Positions 3,865 through 58,970 of a stretch of 64,000 bases of DNA are shown here, in pieces. Within the stretch, counting starts at the first letter, position 1. The number at the start of each line of letters is the position of its first letter. A program made the translations under genes and the position numbers. The DNA is from Siccirubricoccus sp. G192. GTDB lineage: Bacteria > Pseudomonadota > Alphaproteobacteria > Acetobacterales > Acetobacteraceae. The notes under the pieces were generated by a model. It did no database searches and was not told the origin of the DNA. It saw only the letters and a program-made list of their open reading frames with translations. The stretch covers positions 930,001-994,000 of the forward strand of contig NZ_JAHREN010000001.1 in NCBI RefSeq assembly GCF_019084075.1, in the 5' to 3' direction.

Positions 3865-5064
3865 CTACGCCGCCTCCGCCAGATAGGCGATCGCCGCATC
3901 CACGCCGCCCGGCGCGTGCGGCACCTTCTCCAGCCGCATCGCCAGTTCCACGACGGAGAGCGTGCCGAGCACCATCGGCTCGTTCAGGTCGCCGAGATGG
4001 CCGATGCGGAACACCCGGCCGGACAGTTTCGACAGCCCGCCGCCGAGCGAGACGTTGAAACGCCCGAGCGCGGTGCGGCGCAGCGCATCCGCGTCATGCC
4101 CCTCCGGCATCAGCACGGCGGTGACGCTGTCCGAGAAGCGGCCGGGATTGGTGCAGAAAAGCTGCGGCCCGTTGTTGCCGGACCAGTGCTGCACGCAGCG
4201 CCGCACCGCCTCGCCCAGGCGGGAATGGCGGGCGAAGACCTCCTCCAGCCCCTCCTCCTCGATCAGCCGCAGCGATTCCTGCAAGCCGTAGAAGAGGCTG
4301 ATCGGCACGGTGCCGACGAAGCTCTTGTGCCGGCGCGCCAGCATGTTGGTCCAATTGAAGTAGTGCTTCGGCAGGCGCGAATCCTTGTGCGCCGCCATCG
4401 CCTTGTCGGAGACGCCGGTGAAGCTCATGCCGGTCGGCAGCATCAGCCCCTTCTGGCTGCCGCCCACCGCCGCATCCACTCCCCATTCATCCATGCGGAA
4501 ATCGATGGAGCCGAGCGAGGAGATGGTATCGGCCAGCAGCAGCGCCGGATGCCCTGCCGCATCCATGGCGGCGCGGACCTCCGCGAGCGGCAGCACCATG
4601 CCGGTCGAGGTCTCGTTGTGCACGGCGCAGACCGCCTTGATGACATGCGCGGTATCGGCCGCCAGCGCGGCGCGCACGGCGGCCATGTCCACGCCGCGGC
4701 GCCAATCGGCCGGCACCACCCGCACTTCCAGCCCGAGGTCGCGCGCCATATGCGCCCAACTGTCGGAGAAATGCCCGGTCTCCAGGATCAGCACCGTGTC
4801 GCCGGCGGAGAGCAGGTTGACCAGGCTCGCTTCCCAGGCGCCATGGCCGGAAGCGGTGTACATGAAGATGTGCTGGCGGGTCTTCAGCACCCGCTTCAGC
4901 CCCTCCAAGCAGGCATCATAGACCTCAAGGAAGGCGCCGTCGTTGAAGTCCACGGTGGTATGGGCCACGGCCTGCAGCACGGAATCCGGGATATTGGTCG
5001 GGCCTGGATTGGCGAAGAACTGGCGGCCCCTGGGCTTCTTCTGCGCCGGCTTGGCTGCGCTCAT
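3865..5064 (-). CDS. Class V aminotransferase (alanine/serine-glyoxylate aminotransferase family)
   Basis: A 399-residue PLP enzyme of fold type I. The start MSAAKPAQKKPRGRQFFANP leads into NPGPTNIP, the family opening; TASGHGAWEAS binds the cofactor phosphate, the Asp in LLADTISSLGS holds the pyridine nitrogen, and K205 in GGSQKGLM is the Schiff-base lysine. The family transfers amino groups to glyoxylate or pyruvate. AAGGGGAAAG upstream is the likely RBS. It is transcribed toward the enolase-superfamily gene and lies downstream of the carboxymuconolactone decarboxylase-like and GST genes on the same strand, with about 100 bases between. Confidence 0.9.
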   Translation of the reverse strand: MSAAKPAQKKPRGRQFFANPGPTNIPDSVLQAVAHTTVDFNDGAFLEVYDACLEGLKRVLKTRQHIFMYTASGHGAWEASLVNLLSAGDTVLILETGHFSDSWAHMARDLGLEVRVVPADWRRGVDMAAVRAALAADTAHVIKAVCAVHNETSTGMVLPLAEVRAAMDAAGHPALLLADTISSLGSIDFRMDEWGVDAAVGGSQKGLMLPTGMSFTGVSDKAMAAHKDSRLPKHYFNWTNMLARRHKSFVGTVPISLFYGLQESLRLIEEEGLEEVFARHSRLGEAVRRCVQHWSGNNGPQLFCTNPGRFSDSVTAVLMPEGHDADALRRTALGRFNVSLGGGLSKLSGRVFRIGHLGDLNEPMVLGTLSVVELAMRLEKVPHAPGGVDAAIAYLAEAA

Positions 5065-5160
5065 GGCGATGGCTTTCCCCTTGGATCAGGTCTTGGGCAG
5101 GCCATGGGTTTCCCATGCCCTGCCCTGCTTGGCCAGGGGCGGCGGCCCCGGGCTGTGGGT

Positions 5161-5709
5161 TCAGATGGGCAGCGGATACTTGCGGAGATAGGGCATGTAG
5201 CTCTCCTCCACATCCACCTCCAGCGAGGCCAGCACCCGCACCACGGCGCAGTAGAAGCTGGCGGTCACCACCAGGTCCATGATCGCCTCATTGTCGAGCG
5301 AGGCGCGCAGCGCGGCGAAGGTGTCATGGCCCACACCGGGCCCGGCATGGATCTCCCGCGCCGCCCGCAGCACCAGCCGGGCCAGCGGCTCCAGCGCCGA
5401 GGGCCGGCCCGCGGTATCGGCGATCAGCCCCTCGATATCGGCATCGGTGACGCCGAAATCATAGCCGATCTTCACATGGTGCGACCATTCATAGGGCGAG
5501 CGTGCCAGCCAGCCCACCTGCAGGATCGCCAGCTCGCGCAGCCGCGCATCCAGCACCGTCTTGTGCCGGATATACTGCCCCAGCCCGGAGAAGGCGCGCG
5601 CCGCCGCCGGGTTGTGCGCCAGCGCCTTGTGCAGGTTGATGTCGCGCGCCAGCAGCGCCTGGTCTTCCGGCTTCAGGTCGGCTTTTTCCAGATAGGGCAG
5701 TCGGGCCAT
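5161..5709 (-). CDS. Carboxymuconolactone decarboxylase family protein
   Basis: A 182-residue all-helical protein of the CMD/AhpD fold. The core reads RLRELAILQVGWLARSPYEW followed by SHHVKIG, matching the conserved E-x-x-H core helix of the family. There is no C-x-x-C pair, so an AhpD-type peroxidase role is unlikely; a ring-opening decarboxylase or isomerase-like role is more in line with the neighbouring GST and CoA-transferase genes. It follows the GST gene after 42 bases on the same strand and is probably part of one transcription unit with it. Confidence 0.82.
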   Translation of the reverse strand: MARLPYLEKADLKPEDQALLARDINLHKALAHNPAAARAFSGLGQYIRHKTVLDARLRELAILQVGWLARSPYEWSHHVKIGYDFGVTDADIEGLIADTAGRPSALEPLARLVLRAAREIHAGPGVGHDTFAALRASLDNEAIMDLVVTASFYCAVVRVLASLEVDVEESYMPYLRKYPLPI

Positions 5710-5751
5710 GGGTGTTTCCTCGTCCGTTGGTCGGGTCAGGCTGCGCGTGGT

Positions 5752-6366
5752 TCAGGCATCGACATGCTCGGTCGCCTGCACCGAGGGCCGTGCACGGAAC
5801 GCCGCGTGCCAGGCCACCAGGGCCGGATGGCCGGCGCGCCACTCCGCCCCGGCATAGCGGAAGTCGAGATAGGAAAGCGCGCAGCCGATCGCGACATGGC
5901 CGATGCCAAAGGGCGTGGCCGCCAGCGCCGGCGCCTCCGCCTCCAAGGCCGCCAGCACCGCCGCGTGCTTCAGCGCGAAGCCGTCCAGCATCGTGGCGAG
6001 GGGCGCCTCGCGCGCCCGTTCGGCGCGCCAGAGCAGCAGCATGTCGCAATATCCGGTGCCGAGCGCCTGCCAGCGCAACGCCGTGATCCGCGCCGGGCCG
6101 GCGGGTGGAAACAGCGGCGGCCCGGCATGCAGCCCGTCCAGGTATTCGCAGATCACCCCGGAATCGAACAGCGCGGAGCCATCCTCCAGCACCAGGGTCG
6201 GGATCTTGCCGAGGGGATTGCGGGCCAGCACCTCGGGGTTGCGCAGCGTCGGCGCCACCAGGGTCGGGATGCGCTCTATCCGCCCGGCCAGCCCCGTCTC
6301 ATGCGCCGCCACCATCACCTTCCGCACGAAGGGGGAGCGGGAGGACCAGTGCAGCCTCATTGCCAT
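5752..6366 (-). CDS. Glutathione S-transferase family protein
   Basis: A 204-residue two-domain GST. The N-terminal thioredoxin-like half begins MAMRLHWSSRSPFVRKVMVA, with Ser in the catalytic SPFVRK turn, and has the cis-proline loop NPLGKIPTLVLEDG and the SGVICEYLD glutathione-binding segment; the C-terminal helical half ends with a shortened domain. A second in-frame ATG two codons later is possible. First gene of a probable GST-CMD-aminotransferase group on the minus strand; such enzymes often remove glutathione adducts or isomerise ring-cleavage products. Confidence 0.85.
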   Translation of the reverse strand: MAMRLHWSSRSPFVRKVMVAAHETGLAGRIERIPTLVAPTLRNPEVLARNPLGKIPTLVLEDGSALFDSGVICEYLDGLHAGPPLFPPAGPARITALRWQALGTGYCDMLLLWRAERAREAPLATMLDGFALKHAAVLAALEAEAPALAATPFGIGHVAIGCALSYLDFRYAGAEWRAGHPALVAWHAAFRARPSVQATEHVDA

Positions 6367-51905: not shown

Positions 51906-52505
51906 TCAGGCGGCAGCCGCGGCCGGCTGTTGCGGCAGCGCCACGCCCACCAGCGCATCGCGGGTGACGATGGCGGCGAGCTGGTCCTCGCTCCAGCCCT
52001 CGGTGCCGGCGGGGCGCATGGGCAGCACCATCCAGCGGTAATCCGCGGTGCTGTCCACCACGCGGATCTCCATGCCCTCCGGCAGGACGGTGCCCCATTC
52101 CGCCAGCACGCCGCGCGGGTCGCGCACGGCGCGGGAGCGGTAGGCGAAGGATTTGTACCAATGCGGCGGGTAGCCGAGCACGGCGCGCGGGTAGCAACTG
52201 CACAGGGTGCAGACCACCAGGTGATGGCGCGCCGCCGTATCCTCCAGCACGCCGAGCGGCGGGGCGCCGGCCATGGAAACCCCCATTCGCTCCGCGGCCT
52301 GGGCGCCGTCGCGCAGCAGCAGCGCACGGTATTCCGGGTCGAGCCAGGCGCGGGCCACCATGCGGGCGCCGGTTTCCGGGCTGGCGCGGTCGGTGCTGGC
52401 CTGGCGGGCGGCGAGTTCCTCCTCGGAGACGATGCCCTTGGCCTTCAGGGCGGCGATCAGCGCTTCCAATTGCGCCAGGGATTCGCGGCGGGCGGGCGGG
52501 CTCAT
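51906..52505 (-). CDS. Nitrile hydratase alpha / thiocyanate hydrolase gamma-like subunit
   Basis: A 199-residue catalytic subunit. The metal site VCTLCSCYP has Cys99, Cys102 and Cys104; Thr in C-T-L-C is the cobalt-type variant, and Cys102 and Cys104 are the ones oxidised in known enzymes. The conserved ARAWLDPEYRALLL and YPPHWYKSFAYRSRAVRDPR segments are present. Such enzymes hydrate nitriles to amides or convert thiocyanate to carbonyl sulfide and ammonia. The ATG at 52505 overlaps the preceding stop (ATGA). Together with the two short beta genes it forms a three-subunit enzyme. Confidence 0.92.
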   Translation of the reverse strand: MSPPARRESLAQLEALIAALKAKGIVSEEELAARQASTDRASPETGARMVARAWLDPEYRALLLRDGAQAAERMGVSMAGAPPLGVLEDTAARHHLVVCTLCSCYPRAVLGYPPHWYKSFAYRSRAVRDPRGVLAEWGTVLPEGMEIRVVDSTADYRWMVLPMRPAGTEGWSEDQLAAIVTRDALVGVALPQQPAAAAA

Positions 52506-52807
52506 GCGGCCTCCTGCGCCGGGTTTTCCGGCTCCAGCCAATGTTCGAAGATCTCGACCAGCACCTCGTCGCCGGGGCGGCCTTCCTGGAAGATCGGCGG
52601 CTGGTCGAACAGCACATGATACAGCACGCGCTTTGGCGCCGGGCGGGCGAAGGCCAGGTCCTCGGGATTGGCGAAGCGGCCGAGCACGCGCTGCACCGTG
52701 CCGCTGCGGCCGCGCAGGTAGTGCGGCGTGCGGATGTGGCAGGGGCCGCGGCGCTCCGGCCAGTCGTCCTTGACGCGCACGCGGGTGCCGGGGGCGAGTT
52801 CGGCCAT
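52502..52807 (-). CDS. Nitrile hydratase beta subunit, C-terminal-half protein
   Basis: A 101-residue SH3-like barrel corresponding to the C-terminal domain of the nitrile hydratase beta subunit: LAPGTRVRVKDDWPERRGPC, HIRTPHYLRGRSGTVQRVLG and LYHVLFDQPPIF. It equals the alpha subunit of thiocyanate hydrolase or one of the two short subunits of toyocamycin nitrile hydratase. It starts at the stop of the N-terminal-half gene (TGATG) and its own stop overlaps the catalytic subunit start, so all three are translationally coupled. Confidence 0.9.
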   Translation of the reverse strand: MAELAPGTRVRVKDDWPERRGPCHIRTPHYLRGRSGTVQRVLGRFANPEDLAFARPAPKRVLYHVLFDQPPIFQEGRPGDEVLVEIFEHWLEPENPAQEAA

Positions 52808-53100
52808 CAGCGCAACTCCTCCGCCTGCACCACGCCCTTCTCCAGCATCAGCGTGGTGATGGAACGCAGCCAGCGCTCGTAATAGGTGAGCGCGAGGTAT
52901 TCCTCCTCGGGGATGGATTCGATGCCGCGGCGCAGCTCGTCCACCGTCATCAGCTTCTTCTGGGCCAGAAGCTGGCGCAGCGCATCAACGCGCTTGCCGA
53001 AGGCATCCGGCGGTTCCTCGTCCCGTTCCACCGGCGTGCAGCGGAAGCGGGGGACGCCGCCCATGTCATGGGTGGCGGGGGTGCGGTCGGGGTCGCTCAT
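52807..53100 (-). CDS. Nitrile hydratase beta subunit, N-terminal-half protein
   Basis: A 97-residue helical protein with the N-terminal signature HDMGGVPRFRCTP and the helices FGKRVDALRQLLAQKKLMTV and YLALTYYERWLRSITTLMLE, followed by EKGVV, as in the first half of nitrile hydratase beta or the thiocyanate hydrolase beta subunit. P14K-type activators have a related fold, but the HDMGG motif favours a structural subunit. No other maturation protein is encoded in the operon. First gene of the group. Confidence 0.88.
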   Translation of the reverse strand: MSDPDRTPATHDMGGVPRFRCTPVERDEEPPDAFGKRVDALRQLLAQKKLMTVDELRRGIESIPEEEYLALTYYERWLRSITTLMLEKGVVQAEELR

Positions 53101-53198: not shown

Positions 53199-54107
53199 CT
53201 AGTTGATCGCCTCGTCCGGCGTCACGCCCCAGATCTCGGACCGCTTGATGTAACCGCGATGATCGGCCACCCGCACCTCGCACCAGGGGCTGCCGGCCTC
53301 GCATTGCCGGAGCGTGCCGATGACCCCTGGCTGTAGGCGGGCGACGGCGGGGGCGCCTTCCTCCGGCCGGCGGCGCAGCAACCGCTCCCCGCCCTGCACC
53401 AGGAAGGTGCGGCGGGCGCTGAGCAGCGGGCGCTGGACCCAGCCCTCGGTCCCCTCGGGGTCGCGGATGCGGCGCCAGATCTGGTGTTCCCCCACGATCT
53501 GCACCGGCAGGTCGCGGCGCTGATAGGTCCATTCCACGCGATAACGCAGATCCGGCCCGATCCGCATGTTCACTTGGCTGGAGCCAAGGGCGGCGAAGCG
53601 CGGCAGCGGCAGGCCGGTGACGTCGCCAACGCTCGGCCGGGGCGGGGTGGGTGGCGCCACGGGTTCCGGCGGCCGGACAACGCCGGCGGTGGCGGCAGCC
53701 CCGGCGGCGGCACCCGCGGCGGCTCCGGCGGCGCGGCGGCCCTGGCCGACGGGTGCCTGGCCGGCGGCCGGGCGCTGCGCGCTGGTGCTGCCGGGGCGTG
53801 GCTGCACGACCGGCGGGGCGGAGGGTGTGCGGGGCCTGGACGTGGCGGGGGCTGCGGGCGGGCGCGGCGGGGTTGGCGCCGCGGCCTGCGGCCGTGCCGG
53901 GGCGGTGGCGCCCTGCGCTGGCCGTGAGGGCTGGGCGGCCGGCCGGGAGGGTGCCGGTTGCGGCGCCGATTCGGCTGCCCCCGGGGGCTGCGGCGGCGGC
54001 ATCGTGGTCTGGCGGCCGAGGCTCGATTGCGCTCCCGCCGGGGAGGCGAGCAACATCCAGGGCAGCAGCAGTGCGGGCAGGAGGCGGTGGTTCACACCCC
54101 CCCGCAT
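53199..54107 (-). CDS. Secreted SH3-domain protein with Pro/Ala-rich linker
   Basis: A 302-residue periplasmic or surface protein with signal peptide (RLLPALLLPWMLLASPAGA). Residues about 30-170 are a Pro/Ala/Arg low-complexity linker. The C-terminal part has two bacterial SH3-like repeats (SSQVNMRIGPDLRYRVEWTY, WRRIRDPEGTEGWVQRPLLS; then GGERLLRRRPEEGAPAVARL and WCEVRVADHRGYIKRSE), the type that binds peptidoglycan or envelope partners. Single gene, divergent from nothing nearby. Confidence 0.85.
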   Translation of the reverse strand: MRGGVNHRLLPALLLPWMLLASPAGAQSSLGRQTTMPPPQPPGAAESAPQPAPSRPAAQPSRPAQGATAPARPQAAAPTPPRPPAAPATSRPRTPSAPPVVQPRPGSTSAQRPAAGQAPVGQGRRAAGAAAGAAAGAAATAGVVRPPEPVAPPTPPRPSVGDVTGLPLPRFAALGSSQVNMRIGPDLRYRVEWTYQRRDLPVQIVGEHQIWRRIRDPEGTEGWVQRPLLSARRTFLVQGGERLLRRRPEEGAPAVARLQPGVIGTLRQCEAGSPWCEVRVADHRGYIKRSEIWGVTPDEAIN

Positions 54108-54154
54108 GCCAAGCCTGGCCCCGACTGGTCAAGTTATGGTTGGTCACGCGCGGG

Positions 54155-54544
54155 TCATAGGGAAACACTCTGGCCATCCCCCAGTGCCGCAAGGAAGGTT
54201 GCCACCCCCGCCACTTCCACCCCCGGCGCCAGCGCCGCGCCGGTAAGGTCCTCGGCCCGCAGCCCGGCCTCGCAGGCGATGCGCCGGATGCCGAGTTCCA
54301 CCGCCGCCGGCAGCAAGGTGGCGATGCCGGCGACGCCGCGCGCCTCCAGCGCCGCCTCGCGCGGGTCCGCCAGCAGCGGCGAGGGGTCGAGGAACAGCCG
54401 GCAGCCGGCATTGGTGGCGAAAAGCACCACCTCCCGCCCCAGCGCCGCGGCGCCGGCGGCCAGCACCAGCGCATAATGCGCCCGCTCATGCCCGCCCGAG
54501 AGCAGCAGGATGCCGAGGGTCCTGGCCGGCGGCCCTGCCGCCAT
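54155..54544 (-). CDS. DsrE/DsrF-like family protein
   Basis: A 129-residue cytosolic protein with a Rossmann-like DsrE fold: [36 protein letters not shown] and [20 protein letters not shown]. Two cysteines (about 52 and 93) are in positions similar to the DsrE/TusD sulfur carrier cysteine region. It begins directly after the MoeB/HesA-like gene (one or two bases apart after correction of that gene), and could work with it in sulfur transfer. Confidence 0.8.
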
Positions 54545-54546
54545 GC

Positions 54547-55370
54547 TCACGCGGCGCAGACCGCCGGCGCGGGGTTGCGGTGCCGGGAGAGGTCGCGATC
54601 GAGGCATCCTCCCCGCAGAGCGCGCATTCCGGGTCGCGCCGCAGCCGCACCGTGCGGAACCGTGCATCCAGCGCGTCCCAGAGCAGCAGCCGGCCGGACA
54701 ATGTCTCGCCGATGCCGAGGATCAGCTTCAGCACCTCGGTCGCCTGCAAGGTGCCCATCACGCCGGTGACGGCGCCGAGCACGCCGGCTTCCGAGCAGCT
54801 CGGCACCAGCCCCTCCGGCGGGATCTCCGGGTGCAGGCAGCGGTGGCAGGGATGTGGCGGGCCGAGATGCGAGCGGAAGACCGAAAGCTGCCCCTCGAAG
54901 CGCAGCACCGCCGCCGAGACCAGCGGCCGGCCGAGCAGGTGGCAGGCATCGCCCAGCAGGAAGCGGGTGGCGAAATTGTCGGTGCCGTCGCAGACCAGGT
55001 CGTAGCGCGGGATCAGCTCCTGCGCGCTCTCCGCGTCCAGCCGGACCGCATGGGTTTCCACCCGCGTCTCCGGGTTGAGCGCAGCCAGCGTCTCCGCCGC
55101 GCTTTCCGCCTTGTTGCGGCCGATGCGGGCGGTGGTATGCGCCACCTGGCGTTGCAGGTTGGAGAGTTCCAGCCGGTCGTGGTCGATCAGCCCGATGGTG
55201 CCCACCCCCGCCGCTGCGAGATAGAGCGCCAGCGGCGAGCCGAGCCCGCCCGCCCCCACCACCAGCACCCGCGCGGCACGGAGGCGGGCCTGGCCCTCGG
55301 CGCCCACCTCCTGCAGCAGGATGTGGCGGGAGTAGCGGTGCAATTCGGCATCGGTGAAATCGAGGTCCAT
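54547..55370 (-). CDS. moeB: MoeB/ThiF/HesA family adenylyltransferase; probable frameshift near its end
   Basis: An E1-like enzyme of about 274 residues that adenylates the C-terminus of MoaD- or ThiS-type sulfur carriers. The ATP site [34 protein letters not shown], the catalytic segment [17 protein letters not shown] and the zinc cysteines PCHRCLHPE and ECALCGE are present. In the record the frame runs on to 54486, but one base inserted at about 54595 gives [15 protein letters not shown] and a stop at 54547, a normal end just before the DsrE gene. A start at 55397 is also possible. The sulfur carrier partner is not in the window. Confidence 0.85.
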
Positions 55371-55402
55371 GGCGGCGATATGGGGCGGCGCGGGCATCGG
55401 CG

Positions 55403-55850
55403 CTAGCGCGTTCCCGTGCTGCCGAAGCCGCCGGTGCCACGGGTGCTGTCGGGCAGCGCCGCCACCTCCCGCCAGGCGGCACGCGTCACCGGGGCCAGCA
55501 CGGCCTGGGCGATGCGCATGCCGCGCTCCACGGTGAAGGGTTCCGTGCCGGCATTCAGGAGGATGACCTGCAATTCCCCCCCGGTAGTCCTCGTCGATCG
55601 TGCCGGGGCTGTTCGGCACCAGGACGCCGTGCTTCAGCGCCAGGCCAGAGCGCGGCCGGATCTGCAATTCATGCCCCTCCGGCAGGGCGATGCGGAGCCC
55701 GGTCGGCACCAGGGCGCGGCCACCCGGCGGCACCAGCAGCGGCTCCGTCACCGCCGCCAGCAGGTCCATTCCCGCCGCACCCTCGGTGGCATAGGCGGGC
55801 AGCGGCAGGCCCTCGGCATGCGGCAGGCGCAGCACCGCGATCTCATTCAT
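55403..55850 (-). CDS. dut: dUTP diphosphatase; one frameshift
   Basis: With one base removed this is a 148-residue trimeric dUTPase that keeps uracil out of DNA. Motif 1 [11 protein letters not shown], motif 2 [11 protein letters not shown], motif 3 [12 protein letters not shown] are in one frame; motif 4 and the Gly-rich motif 5 ([10 protein letters not shown]) are in another. The break is a run of seven C/G at 55576-55582; six would give DYRGELQVIL. The start at 55850 overlaps the coaBC end. The coaBC-dut arrangement is common in bacteria. Confidence 0.88.
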
Positions 55851-57041
55851 GCCCCCCGGCTCCGCGATCGTCTCCGCGATCCGCTGCGCCAGGCGTTCCG
55901 CCACCGCCGCTTTCGGCATTTCCGGCCAGTCCTCCACGCCCATGGCGGTGATGAGATGCACCCGGTTCGCCTCGCCGCCCATGACATCGCCGGAGACGTC
56001 GTTGGCCACGATCCAGTCGCAGCCCTTGCGGGCGCGCTTCGCCATGGCGTGCTCCACCACCCGCTCGGTCTCCGCGGCGAAACCCACCACCAGGCCGGGC
56101 CGCCGCGCATGGGCGGAGAGGGTTGCCAGGATGTCCGGGTTCAGTGCCATGGCGAGGGTCGGCGCCGCCCCGCCCGGCTCCTTCTTCAGCTTCTGGCCGG
56201 ATTCCCGCGCCACCCGCCAATCGGCGACCGCGGCGGCCATGACGGCGATATCGGCGGGCAGCGCCGCCTCGCAGGCGGCCAGCATCTCGCGCGCGGATTC
56301 GATGCGCCGCACCGTCACGCCCGGCGGGTCCGGCACCATGACCGGGCCGGAAACCAGCGTAACCCGCGCGCCCAGCGCCGCCAACGCCGCGGCGATGGCA
56401 TGGCCCTGCTTGCCGCTGCTGCGGTTGGCGATGTAGCGCACCGGGTCGATCGGCTCATGCGTCGGGCCGGAGGTGACGAGGGCATGCCGCCCGGCGAGCG
56501 GCAGGCCGGCGGGGGCGAGCCGGGCCTGGACCGCCGCCAGGATCTCGGCGGGTTCGGCCAGCCGCCCGGGGCCGCTTTCCGGCTCCGCCATCTCGCCCAC
56601 GCCTGGGCCGACCACGCCCACGCCACGCGCCACCAGCGCCGCCATATTGGCTGACGTGGCGGGGTGTTCCCACATCGCCGGGTTCATCGCCGGCGCCACC
56701 AGCACCGGCGCGCGGGTCGCCAGCAGCACGGTGCTGGCCAGGTCATCCGCCAGTCCCGCCGCCATCTTCGCCAGGAGATCGGCCGAGGCCGGGGCCACCA
56801 CCACCAGGTCAGGCAGCCGGGCCAAGCGGATATGGCCGATCTCGGCCTCCGCCGCCCAGAGGTCGTCATGCACGCGCTGGCCGGTGATGCCCGCCAGCGC
56901 CTCCCGCGTCACGAAACGCGCGCCGCCGGCGGTGAGGATGCCGGTGACGGCGGCACCCTCGCGCCGCAGCAGGCGGGTCAGTTCCAGCGCCTTGTAGGCG
57001 GCGACGCTGCCCGCGATGACCAGGAGGATGCGCTTGCCCAT
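55847..57041 (-). CDS. coaBC: Bifunctional CoaBC (phosphopantothenoylcysteine synthetase/decarboxylase)
   Basis: A flavoprotein of about 397 residues for two steps of CoA synthesis. The CoaC part has [20 protein letters not shown], the flavin site and [12 protein letters not shown]; the CoaB part has [40 protein letters not shown] and VGFAAET. In the record its frame runs on without a stop into dut. A run of six C/G at 55852-55857 lies exactly there; five would give GCATGA, a stop overlapping the dut ATG. So a normal coaBC end with 4-base overlap is likely, and a CoaBC-Dut fusion is the less likely reading. Confidence 0.9.
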
Positions 57042-57101
57042 GAGCATGGGTGCAAGCCTAGACGGAAGCGGGGCGGCTGTCGCGCCCCCGCAAGCCGGGG
57101 T

Positions 57102-57987
57102 TCAGACCGGCCGGTCGCCCTTCACCGTGACCCGGTTGCCGTAGCGGGTATGCGGCCAGTAGTCCCACATGGCGCGGTGCTGGGCGCAGCGGTTGTCCCA
57201 GAAGGCGATGGAATTCTCGCGCCAGCGGAAGCGGCACTGGAACAGCGGGTTGGCCATGTGCTCGAAGAGGTAGTTCAGCACCCCCGTGCTCTCATCCACC
57301 GGCAGGTCGAGGATGCGGCGGGTGAAGCCCTTGTTGACGTAGAGCGCCTTCTTGCCCGTCACCGGATGGGTGCGGATCACCGGATGCACCGCGCGCGGAT
57401 AGGCCGGCTTGTCCTTCACGCCGAAATTCGCATAGGTGCCGCGGTAATTCTCCTCGCCGTCATGCAGCGCGGTCAGCCCTTCGAGATAGGCTTTCATGCG
57501 GTCCGACAGCGCATCATAGGCGGCATACATGCTGGCAAACAGCGTGTCGCCGCCGCGCGGGGGGGCATTGCCGGATATAGAGGATGCTGCCCATCGGCGG
57601 CTCCTCGTCGCAGGAGACGTCGGAATGCCAGCCCTCGCCATTGGCGCGCGGGCTGTCCTTGTCGGCCTTGATGATCATCAGCGCGGGGTGGCCGGGCTCG
57701 GAGGGTGCCGCGGGGTGGATGTGGAGCTCGCCGAAATGCCGGCCGAAATCCAGGTGCTGCTCCTGCGTCAGGTGCTGGTCGCGGAAGAAGATCACCAGGT
57801 TCTCGGCGAGCGCCCGGTGGATCTCGTCCATCTGCTGGTTGGAGGGGCGGGCCAGGTCCACGCCGCCGATCTCGGCGCCGATGATCGGCGTCAGCTTGTC
57901 GATGGTGATGGTCTCATAGGGCGCGGCCTCGTCCGCCGCGTGCTTGTAGCGCGGGCCGGTCCAGCGCGGATGCGGGATGGTGTTCAT
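57102..57987 (-). CDS. TauD/TfdA family Fe(II)/2-oxoglutarate dioxygenase; one frameshift
   Basis: With one base removed this is a 294-residue oxygenase. The metal site is the H-x-D in GWHSDVSCDEEPP with the distal His in NRCAQHRAMWDYWPHTRYGN, where the Arg that binds 2-oxoglutarate follows. LTPIIGAEIGGVDLARP opens the fold. The break is a run of seven G at 57559-57565, where six would read RQCPPRGGDTLF. GGGAG seven bases before the ATG at 57987 sets the start. It follows the Bug receptor gene in the reading direction by 11 bases, as in operons for sulfonate or aryloxyalkanoate use. Substrate unknown. Confidence 0.87.
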
Positions 57988-57998
57988 GGCTTTGCTCC

Positions 57999-58970
57999 CT
58001 ATTCCAGCCGGAGGCCGGCATCGCGGATGATGCGGCCCCAGCTTGCGATCTCGCTGATGGTGAAGGCCTGGAATTCCTCCGGTGTCGCCGGCGGCTCGCG
58101 CGAGCCGCCCATCTGGTCCAGCCGCGCCCGCACATCGGGCATCCGGAAGGCGGCCAGGATATCGCGTTGGATCTTCGCCACCACCGCCGGCGGCGTGGCG
58201 CGCGGCGCATAGAGGCCGGACCAGGTGGTGAATTGCAGCCCGGGCAGCCCCGCCTCCAGGCAACTCGGCACCTCCGGCACGGCGGGGTGGCGCTCGGGGT
58301 AGGAGACCGCCAGCGCATGCACCTCGCCCCGGTCCACCAGCGGCTTGGCGCCGACGATATCCACGGACATCATGGAGATGCGGCCATTCAGCAGGTCCGG
58401 GAAACCCGCCTGGTTGCCGCGATAGCCGACATGGGTGAACTCCACCCCCGTCAGCATGCGGAACAACTCGGAGGCGACGCGGGAGGGCACGCTGCCCTCG
58501 CCGTAATTGTGCCGCCCTGGTTCCGCCCGCAGCCGCTCGATCAGCGCGCCGAGGCTGGTGGTGCCGAGCCCCTTATGCGCCATCACCACGAAGGGCGAAT
58601 TGCCGAAGCGCGTCACCGCGGCGAAATCGCCGACCGGGTCGTAGGTCAGCCGCTCATAGAGCGCCGGGTTGGCGGCATGGGTCATGGCCGAGGTCGCCAG
58701 CAGCGTCAGCCCATCCGGCTTCGCCCGCGCCACCATCTGGCAGGCCAGCACGCCATTGCCGCCGCCCCGGTTGTCGATGACCACCGGCTTGCCCCAGAGC
58801 TGCGCCAGCTTGTCGGCGAAGAGCCGGCTGGTGATGTCCACCGAGGATCCCGCCGGCAGCGAGGTGACGATCGTGACCCGGTCCTGCGGCCATTCGCCGG
58901 TCTGCGCCCGCAGGCCGGGCGCAATGGCGGCGGTGGCGAGGCCACCGAGCAGGGCGCGGCGACTGGCCAA
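57999..58970 (-). CDS. Bug-family (TctC-like) solute-binding protein
   Basis: A 323-residue periplasmic receptor with a Tat-like or Sec signal (ASRRALLGGLATAAIAPGLR). Family hallmarks are VTIVTSLPAGSSVDITSRLF, the VVIDNRGGGNGVLACQMVAR segment and GQTFTHVGYRGN-like EFTHVGYRGNQAGFPDLLNG. Such proteins capture carboxylates for tripartite tricarboxylate transporters or act as orphan sensors. A TTG at 58970 with GGGGAG seven bases before it gives the family start; no membrane subunits are adjacent. It is transcribed together with the TauD-type dioxygenase. Confidence 0.88.
   Translation of the reverse strand: MASRRALLGGLATAAIAPGLRAQTGEWPQDRVTIVTSLPAGSSVDITSRLFADKLAQLWGKPVVIDNRGGGNGVLACQMVARAKPDGLTLLATSAMTHAANPALYERLTYDPVGDFAAVTRFGNSPFVVMAHKGLGTTSLGALIERLRAEPGRHNYGEGSVPSRVASELFRMLTGVEFTHVGYRGNQAGFPDLLNGRISMMSVDIVGAKPLVDRGEVHALAVSYPERHPAVPEVPSCLEAGLPGLQFTTWSGLYAPRATPPAVVAKIQRDILAAFRMPDVRARLDQMGGSREPPATPEEFQAFTISEIASWGRIIRDAGLRLE

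Follow-up and report, generated by a model that had tools for sequence, protein, structure and literature searches.

The three overlapping genes described here probably encode a single Co(III) nitrile hydratase, with its beta subunit divided over two genes, that is matured in the manner of the Streptomyces canus enzyme ScNHase, without a separate activator. The enzyme is a member of the nitrile hydratase/thiocyanate hydrolase superfamily, as seen from its fold, its CxLCSC motif and the beta domains encoded together with alpha. The genes lie in a stretch of 64,000 nucleotides from Siccirubricoccus sp. G192 (the window), in the order beta-N, beta-C, alpha (Table 1). A TGATG overlap joins beta-N to beta-C and an ATGA overlap joins beta-C to alpha, with AGGAGG just 5' of the alpha ATG. 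The PF21006 and PF02211 matches are both above their cut-offs in the Pfam search, and with E-values as low as those of the three domains, the domain assignments are not a matter of chance. Open reading frames and Pfam matches bear out the coordinates, the lengths, the HDMGG and VCTLCSCYP motifs and the overlaps given in the original prediction, which was made from the letters of the sequence.

Table 1. Features at and around the three nitrile hydratase-type genes of the window
Feature	Position in window	Strand	Evidence and remarks
Beta-N gene, 97 aa	53100-52807	minus	PF21006 NHase_beta_N, E=1.6e-16; HDMGG; position orthologous to ScnB and AnhD
Beta-C gene, 101 aa	52807-52502	minus	PF02211 NHase_beta_C, E=4.7e-14; SH3-like C-terminal domain; like ScnA and AnhE
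Alpha gene, 199 aa, catalytic, cobalt type	52505-51906	minus	PF02979 NHase_alpha, E=1.3e-75; VCTLCSCYP
Alpha metal-binding motif Cys99-Thr-Leu-Cys102-Ser-Cys104, cobalt type	52194-52211	minus	No variation among the window and 36 Acetobacteraceae relatives
Alpha Arg107 codon	52185-52187	minus	Alignment to 2dd4_C and 3vyg_C
SnoaL/NTF2-like protein, 148 aa	51423-51869	minus	PF12680, E=4e-17; 36 nt downstream of alpha
DHA2-type MFS transporter, 449 aa	49999-51348	minus	PF07690, E=1.3e-44; TIGR00711 below cut-off
Bacterial SH3-domain protein	53199-54107	minus	PF06347, E=7.4e-27; just upstream; conserved neighbour, not part of the nitrile hydratase
CoaBC, dut, ThiF/MoeB-like E1, DsrE-like and SH3 genes	53199-57047	minus	Upstream in many Acetobacteraceae; conserved chromosomal site
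dut (dUTPase)	55400-55850	minus	Looks frameshifted near 55574, halves in different frames; first frame matches PF00692 only at positions 4-76 of 129
TauD/TfdA dioxygenase	57102-58263	minus	Split over two frames; ORF 57102-57641 covers only TauD positions 120-267, N-terminal part seemingly in overlapping ORF 57514-58263

The subunits had been called unusually short, which holds relative to the chains of thiocyanate hydrolase (157, 126 and 243 aa) and not otherwise. Alpha is close in length to ordinary nitrile hydratase alpha chains (203-226 aa in the PDB), and the joined beta pieces miss just the linker between the N- and C-terminal domains, some 30-40 residues of a beta chain of 206-233 aa. 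Both catalytic arginine motifs of beta are kept in the alignment, where DELRRGIE of beta-N is matched to DEFRHSIE of 3qxe_B and HIRTPHYLRG of beta-C (the HIRxPxYxRG motif) to HIRMPAYCRG of 3wvd_B. Along with the three cysteine ligands, many surrounding positions of alpha are invariant across the clade. The AlphaFold model of alpha (pLDDT 89.3) fits nitrile hydratase alpha and thiocyanate hydrolase gamma equally, with Z of 23-25 for both, thus the fold does not decide the substrate.

Used as a query against bacterial genomes, the alpha protein gave 80 loci, the majority in genomes or MAGs labelled Acetobacteraceae or Rhodospirillales. In nearly all of these loci, beta-N, beta-C and alpha are separate open frames that follow one another in this order. 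The three-gene layout is present in 120 analysed loci, nearly all from Acetobacteraceae. The beta-C start overlaps the beta-N stop at an offset of -1 (ATGA or GTGA) in 89 of the 120, and lies between -30 and +60 bases from it in 118. This conservation counts because the window assembly has frameshifts in other genes (dut, the TauD gene and several amidases). Judged across these loci, the split of beta is real and evolutionarily old. Alpha was found in 89 of 150 Acetobacteraceae genomes and beta-N in the same 89, with exactly one copy of each in 72, although one of these single-copy genomes (G446) carries a classical locus (L123). The three-gene form with no recognisable activator occurs in roughly half of the Acetobacteraceae genomes sampled and is common throughout the family.

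The window genome itself (5.96 Mb in 3 contigs) holds alpha, beta-N and beta-C in a single copy each. The original prediction was right that no activator gene follows, and the statement extends genome-wide within the searches made: no beta-N-like activator was detected, the sole PF21006 match being the structural beta-N, and a search with the P15K-like open frame that adjoins scnC in the thiocyanate hydrolase locus L213 gave no credible match (best E 0.08). CbtA- and NicO-type cobalt-uptake genes are likewise missing from this genome. Genomes with a classical enzyme often carry an extra beta-N-like activator. The PF21006 model seems not to reach every divergent activator: G446 has a single match to it, yet the activator profile that we built and applied to the loci under comparison finds an activator in L123. 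The case for absence is therefore strong but not absolute, and a very divergent activator may be encoded elsewhere in the window genome.

The residue that follows the metal motif sets the window enzyme apart from classical nitrile hydratases. Alignment to 2dd4_C equates alpha Arg107 with gammaArg136 of thiocyanate hydrolase, a position at which the mutant chain 3vyg_C has tryptophan and at which classical nitrile hydratases also have tryptophan (alphaTrp116 in P. thermophila). All 44 representatives of the window clade have arginine, and the remaining basic-type sequences have R or K, whereas classical sequences have mostly W and some F or H. The PDB entries 3vyg ("thiocyanate hydrolase mutant R136W") and 3vyh ("aW116R mutant of nitrile hydratase") have titles indicating that others have already tested whether this residue could switch one enzyme into the other. 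A basic residue alone does not signify thiocyanate, since some basic-type relatives stand beside amidase genes (L157, L164 and L144-L146) and the alpha of an R-type Streptomyces relative passes the nitrile hydratase alpha model.

More generally, three-gene enzymes have R or K directly after CTLCSCYP, while in enzymes with a fused beta this residue is W, F or H, or the motif is the Fe-type-like CSLCSCTNW or CTLCSCTA with F or Y after it. Exceptions run in both directions: L106, L114, L115, L116 and the Gloeocapsopsis locus L217 have a split beta yet keep the tryptophan and the activator, and the thiocyanate hydrolase in L213 has a fused beta yet the arginine. The splitting of beta is therefore not by itself the marker. 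In the alpha tree, every aromatic-type sequence falls in one clade (support 95) and every R/K sequence falls outside it. In the beta-N tree, the basic-type pieces, including those of thiocyanate hydrolase and of the window, form one clade (99), and the activators form a separate one (98) that leaves the window outside. A tree of concatenated alpha, beta-N and beta-C, with the R/W column removed, parts the classical and basic-type branches at 100/99, with 100/100 for the Acetobacteraceae clade of the window and 100/100 for the thiocyanate hydrolases, which form a separate clade on a long branch inside the basic-type branch. All of these trees are unrooted, and the polarity of the R/K and aromatic states is not given by them.

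The most useful new point is that Arg/Lys, the lack of a p14K activator and (mostly) a split beta correlate across the branch that contains thiocyanate hydrolase. The wide distribution of the window's clade in the Acetobacteraceae is also new, while the three-gene, activator-free kind of enzyme is itself already known but sparsely described. As for history, we raise only tentatively the idea that an old basic-type branch as a rule matures itself through a free beta-N, that thiocyanate hydrolase arose inside it, and that the Acetobacteraceae enzyme is its widespread core, with a polar or anionic cyano substrate of its own. If thiocyanate hydrolase did come from within this branch, gammaArg136 would be an inherited residue and not an adaptation to thiocyanate. 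With a split beta, a missing activator and Arg/Lys so closely linked, two matters become testable: the route of cobalt loading in the absence of p14K, and what is really decided by the residue at gammaArg136 of thiocyanate hydrolase.

Several relatives are of note for their gene arrangement. A Streptomyces locus (L214), with the order beta-N, beta-C, alpha, lies in the basic-type branch but in a sub-clade other than that of the window. A sister group (L218, L219, L220, L147, L149, L153, L158 and L215) has the order beta-C, alpha, beta-N. In its annotated loci, L218-L220, NicO or CbtAB cobalt transporters follow, and L220 additionally has an aquaporin and a DUF302 protein downstream. At L164 (genome G441, 4965-6059), and also at L155 and L157, a linker connects beta-N and alpha within a single protein; in L164 this linker is rich in His and Asp (HPHDQDHDNDNDHDHVHQPDHD). 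An amidase-like gene overlaps the end of this fusion gene in L164, and the sole beta-C of G441 lies elsewhere on the chromosome (about 205 kb, as against 2.52 Mb). These beta-N/alpha fusions represent a further gene arrangement of the basic-type branch.

The closest described precedent of the window enzyme is ScNHase from Streptomyces canus CGMCC 13662, a cobalt-type enzyme of three subunits whose genes are ordered anhD, anhE, anhA and for which no activator gene was found in the genome (PMC7329996). AnhD is homologous to beta-N and acts as a metal and self-subunit-swapping chaperone via AnhD2A (PMC7329996), and a 2026 review describes ScNHase as a novel three-subunit enzyme without an accessory protein (PMC13243292). 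In its beta-N, beta-C, alpha order, split beta, missing activator and cobalt type, the window enzyme matches the published description. The two belong to different phyla and, if L214 is a guide, to different sub-branches; the chaperone role of AnhD and the activity on acetamiprid are measurements made on ScNHase. We infer the place of ScNHase in the basic-type branch from three things: the gene layout, the missing activator and L214. Activator-free nitrile hydratases have been described from very few cases, with one Streptomyces strain in the literature that we found, and the three-gene forms of the Acetobacteraceae thus provide many natural, compact enzymes for study and biocatalysis.

Other members of the superfamily are less close. 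Thiobacillus thioparus ScnBAC (2dd4) shares the separate beta-N and beta-C chains, the same arginine in CTLCSCYPR and the same deep branch, but thiocyanate hydrolase has longer subunits, a gamma insertion and a His-rich N-terminus and, in L213, a P15K-like open frame and CbtAB. L213 is the annotated thiocyanate hydrolase locus of Roseomonas marmotae plasmid p1318-8 (5035-7061), in which a single 283-aa protein combines the ScnB (beta-N) and ScnA (beta-C) parts, and scnC, the P15K-like frame and CbtBA come next. This P15K-like frame, which is unlisted, encodes 126 aa with a CxxxCxC motif, is weakly beta-N-like and adjoins scnC. Classical cobalt-type nitrile hydratases (R. rhodochrous, L216; P. 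putida, 3qxe) have the same fold, metal motif and beta arginines, and their alpha is about 46-50% identical, but they have a fused beta, an activator gene and tryptophan after the metal motif where the window has a split beta, no activator and arginine. The toyocamycin nitrile hydratase ToyJKL of Streptomyces rimosus has a three-subunit layout as in the window, as reported in PMC7329996, and its alpha alone is reported, in work cited there, to be active and self-maturing. No deazapurine biosynthesis cluster was seen among the window neighbours examined.

By analogy with ScNHase, we propose that beta-N, beta-C and alpha assemble into one Co(III) enzyme, in which two such trimers probably pair. 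The three chains would be kept in step by translational coupling at the TGATG and ATGA overlaps. The free beta-N would pair first with alpha, as in AnhD2A of S. canus, and aid cobalt insertion and cysteine oxidation, after which alpha would be transferred into the full complex with beta-C. With a chaperone role for beta-N and transfer of alpha, a separate p14K gene would be unneeded. The mature centre (Cys99, Cys102 and Cys104) would hydrate a C-N triple bond, most likely converting a nitrile to an amide, in a pocket that Arg107, standing in place of the pocket tryptophan, should make more polar. Alpha scores 241.8 bits against the nitrile hydratase alpha model (NCBIfam nitrile_alph), just below its cut-off of 249.85, and 199.4 bits against the thiocyanate hydrolase gamma model TIGR03887, which has a cut-off of 291.45. 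These two scores, the R-type Streptomyces relative and the amidase-adjoining basic-type relatives suggest a nitrile as the most likely substrate, ahead of thiocyanate. No amidase was found next to a window-clade locus at any locus examined.

We considered the possibility that the enzyme hydrolyses thiocyanate or another small anionic substrate, with Arg107 acting as gammaArg136 does in the Thiobacillus enzyme. The correspondence of the two residues, which structural biologists have swapped both ways, agrees with this, as do the domain order and deep branch that the window shares with L213. The kinship itself, anticipated in the original prediction, holds up in the alpha, beta-N and concatenated trees. 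The authentic R. marmotae scnC in L213, however, passes the gamma model (359.2 bits) that the window alpha fails, and the window has neither the His-rich N-terminus and gamma insertion of thiocyanate hydrolase nor a P15K-like frame or CbtAB transporter. Thiocyanate hydrolases also form a separate clade on their long branch, and the basic residue is general in the wider branch, amidase-adjoining relatives included, and is not specific to thiocyanate. We consider this reading unlikely, and we rejected a direct assignment as thiocyanate hydrolase on the failed NCBIfam model and the missing P15K, gamma insertion and His-rich tail. A loss of catalysis, with the enzyme serving another role, seems more doubtful still: the neighbourhood holds neither a dedicated amidase nor a cobalt transporter, and the genome has no CbtA or NicO, but the clade keeps every metal ligand, and many of the surrounding residues, without variation.

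The free beta-N could instead be an activator of the p14K type, leaving beta-C alone as the beta subunit, a reading favoured by the homology of activators to the beta-N domain and by the chaperone activity of S. canus AnhD. The beta-N tree leaves this reading very improbable, as the activators form their one clade without the window and the window piece groups with structural beta-N pieces including that of thiocyanate hydrolase; a role as activator only was thus rejected. We conclude from this placement that the structural role stays, and we propose a dual role, structural and chaperone. An error of sequencing or assembly that broke the beta gene of a classical two-subunit enzyme has next to no chance of being the explanation. 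The window assembly does look indel-prone, with the frameshifted dut and TauD genes and several split amidase genes in the genome, but the split with its overlapping start and stop recurs in the 120 loci from many independent assemblies, and the window has no activator gene. The original prediction had named placement deep within the classical enzymes, with an assembly error splitting beta, as what would count against it; the window enzyme lies outside that clade at 100/99, and the conserved junctions and this placement rule out the error. Our preferred reading remains an ScNHase-like nitrile hydratase with a truly split beta.

The neighbouring genes are of limited help in identifying the substrate. 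The NTF2-like protein and DHA2 exporter noted downstream of alpha are indeed there (PF12680 and PF07690), and they had been thought to hint at a distinct substrate. Among 69 representative relatives, the NTF2-like gene adjoins 3 and a DHA2-type exporter is downstream in 12, and both were set aside as substrate guides because they are so poorly conserved. The NTF2-like gene is probably an operon member and a poorly conserved neighbour, and within one part of the clade the exporter gene probably belongs to the operon too. While the original prediction recognised a split enzyme of this family with kinship to thiocyanate hydrolase, its hint from the neighbours does not stand, and it missed the ScNHase precedent and the replacement of tryptophan by arginine. 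The SH3-domain gene is upstream on the same strand in 30 of the 69 representatives.

Beyond the dut gene, the split TauD/TfdA gene is another sign of an indel-prone assembly, or else of a pseudogene. Several amidase genes of the genome are also hit as pairs of adjacent pieces, examples on contig C1 being 3789589-3790846, 4588466-4589718, 4996719-4998004 and 1386513-1387761, which suggests that frameshifts are many in the window assembly.
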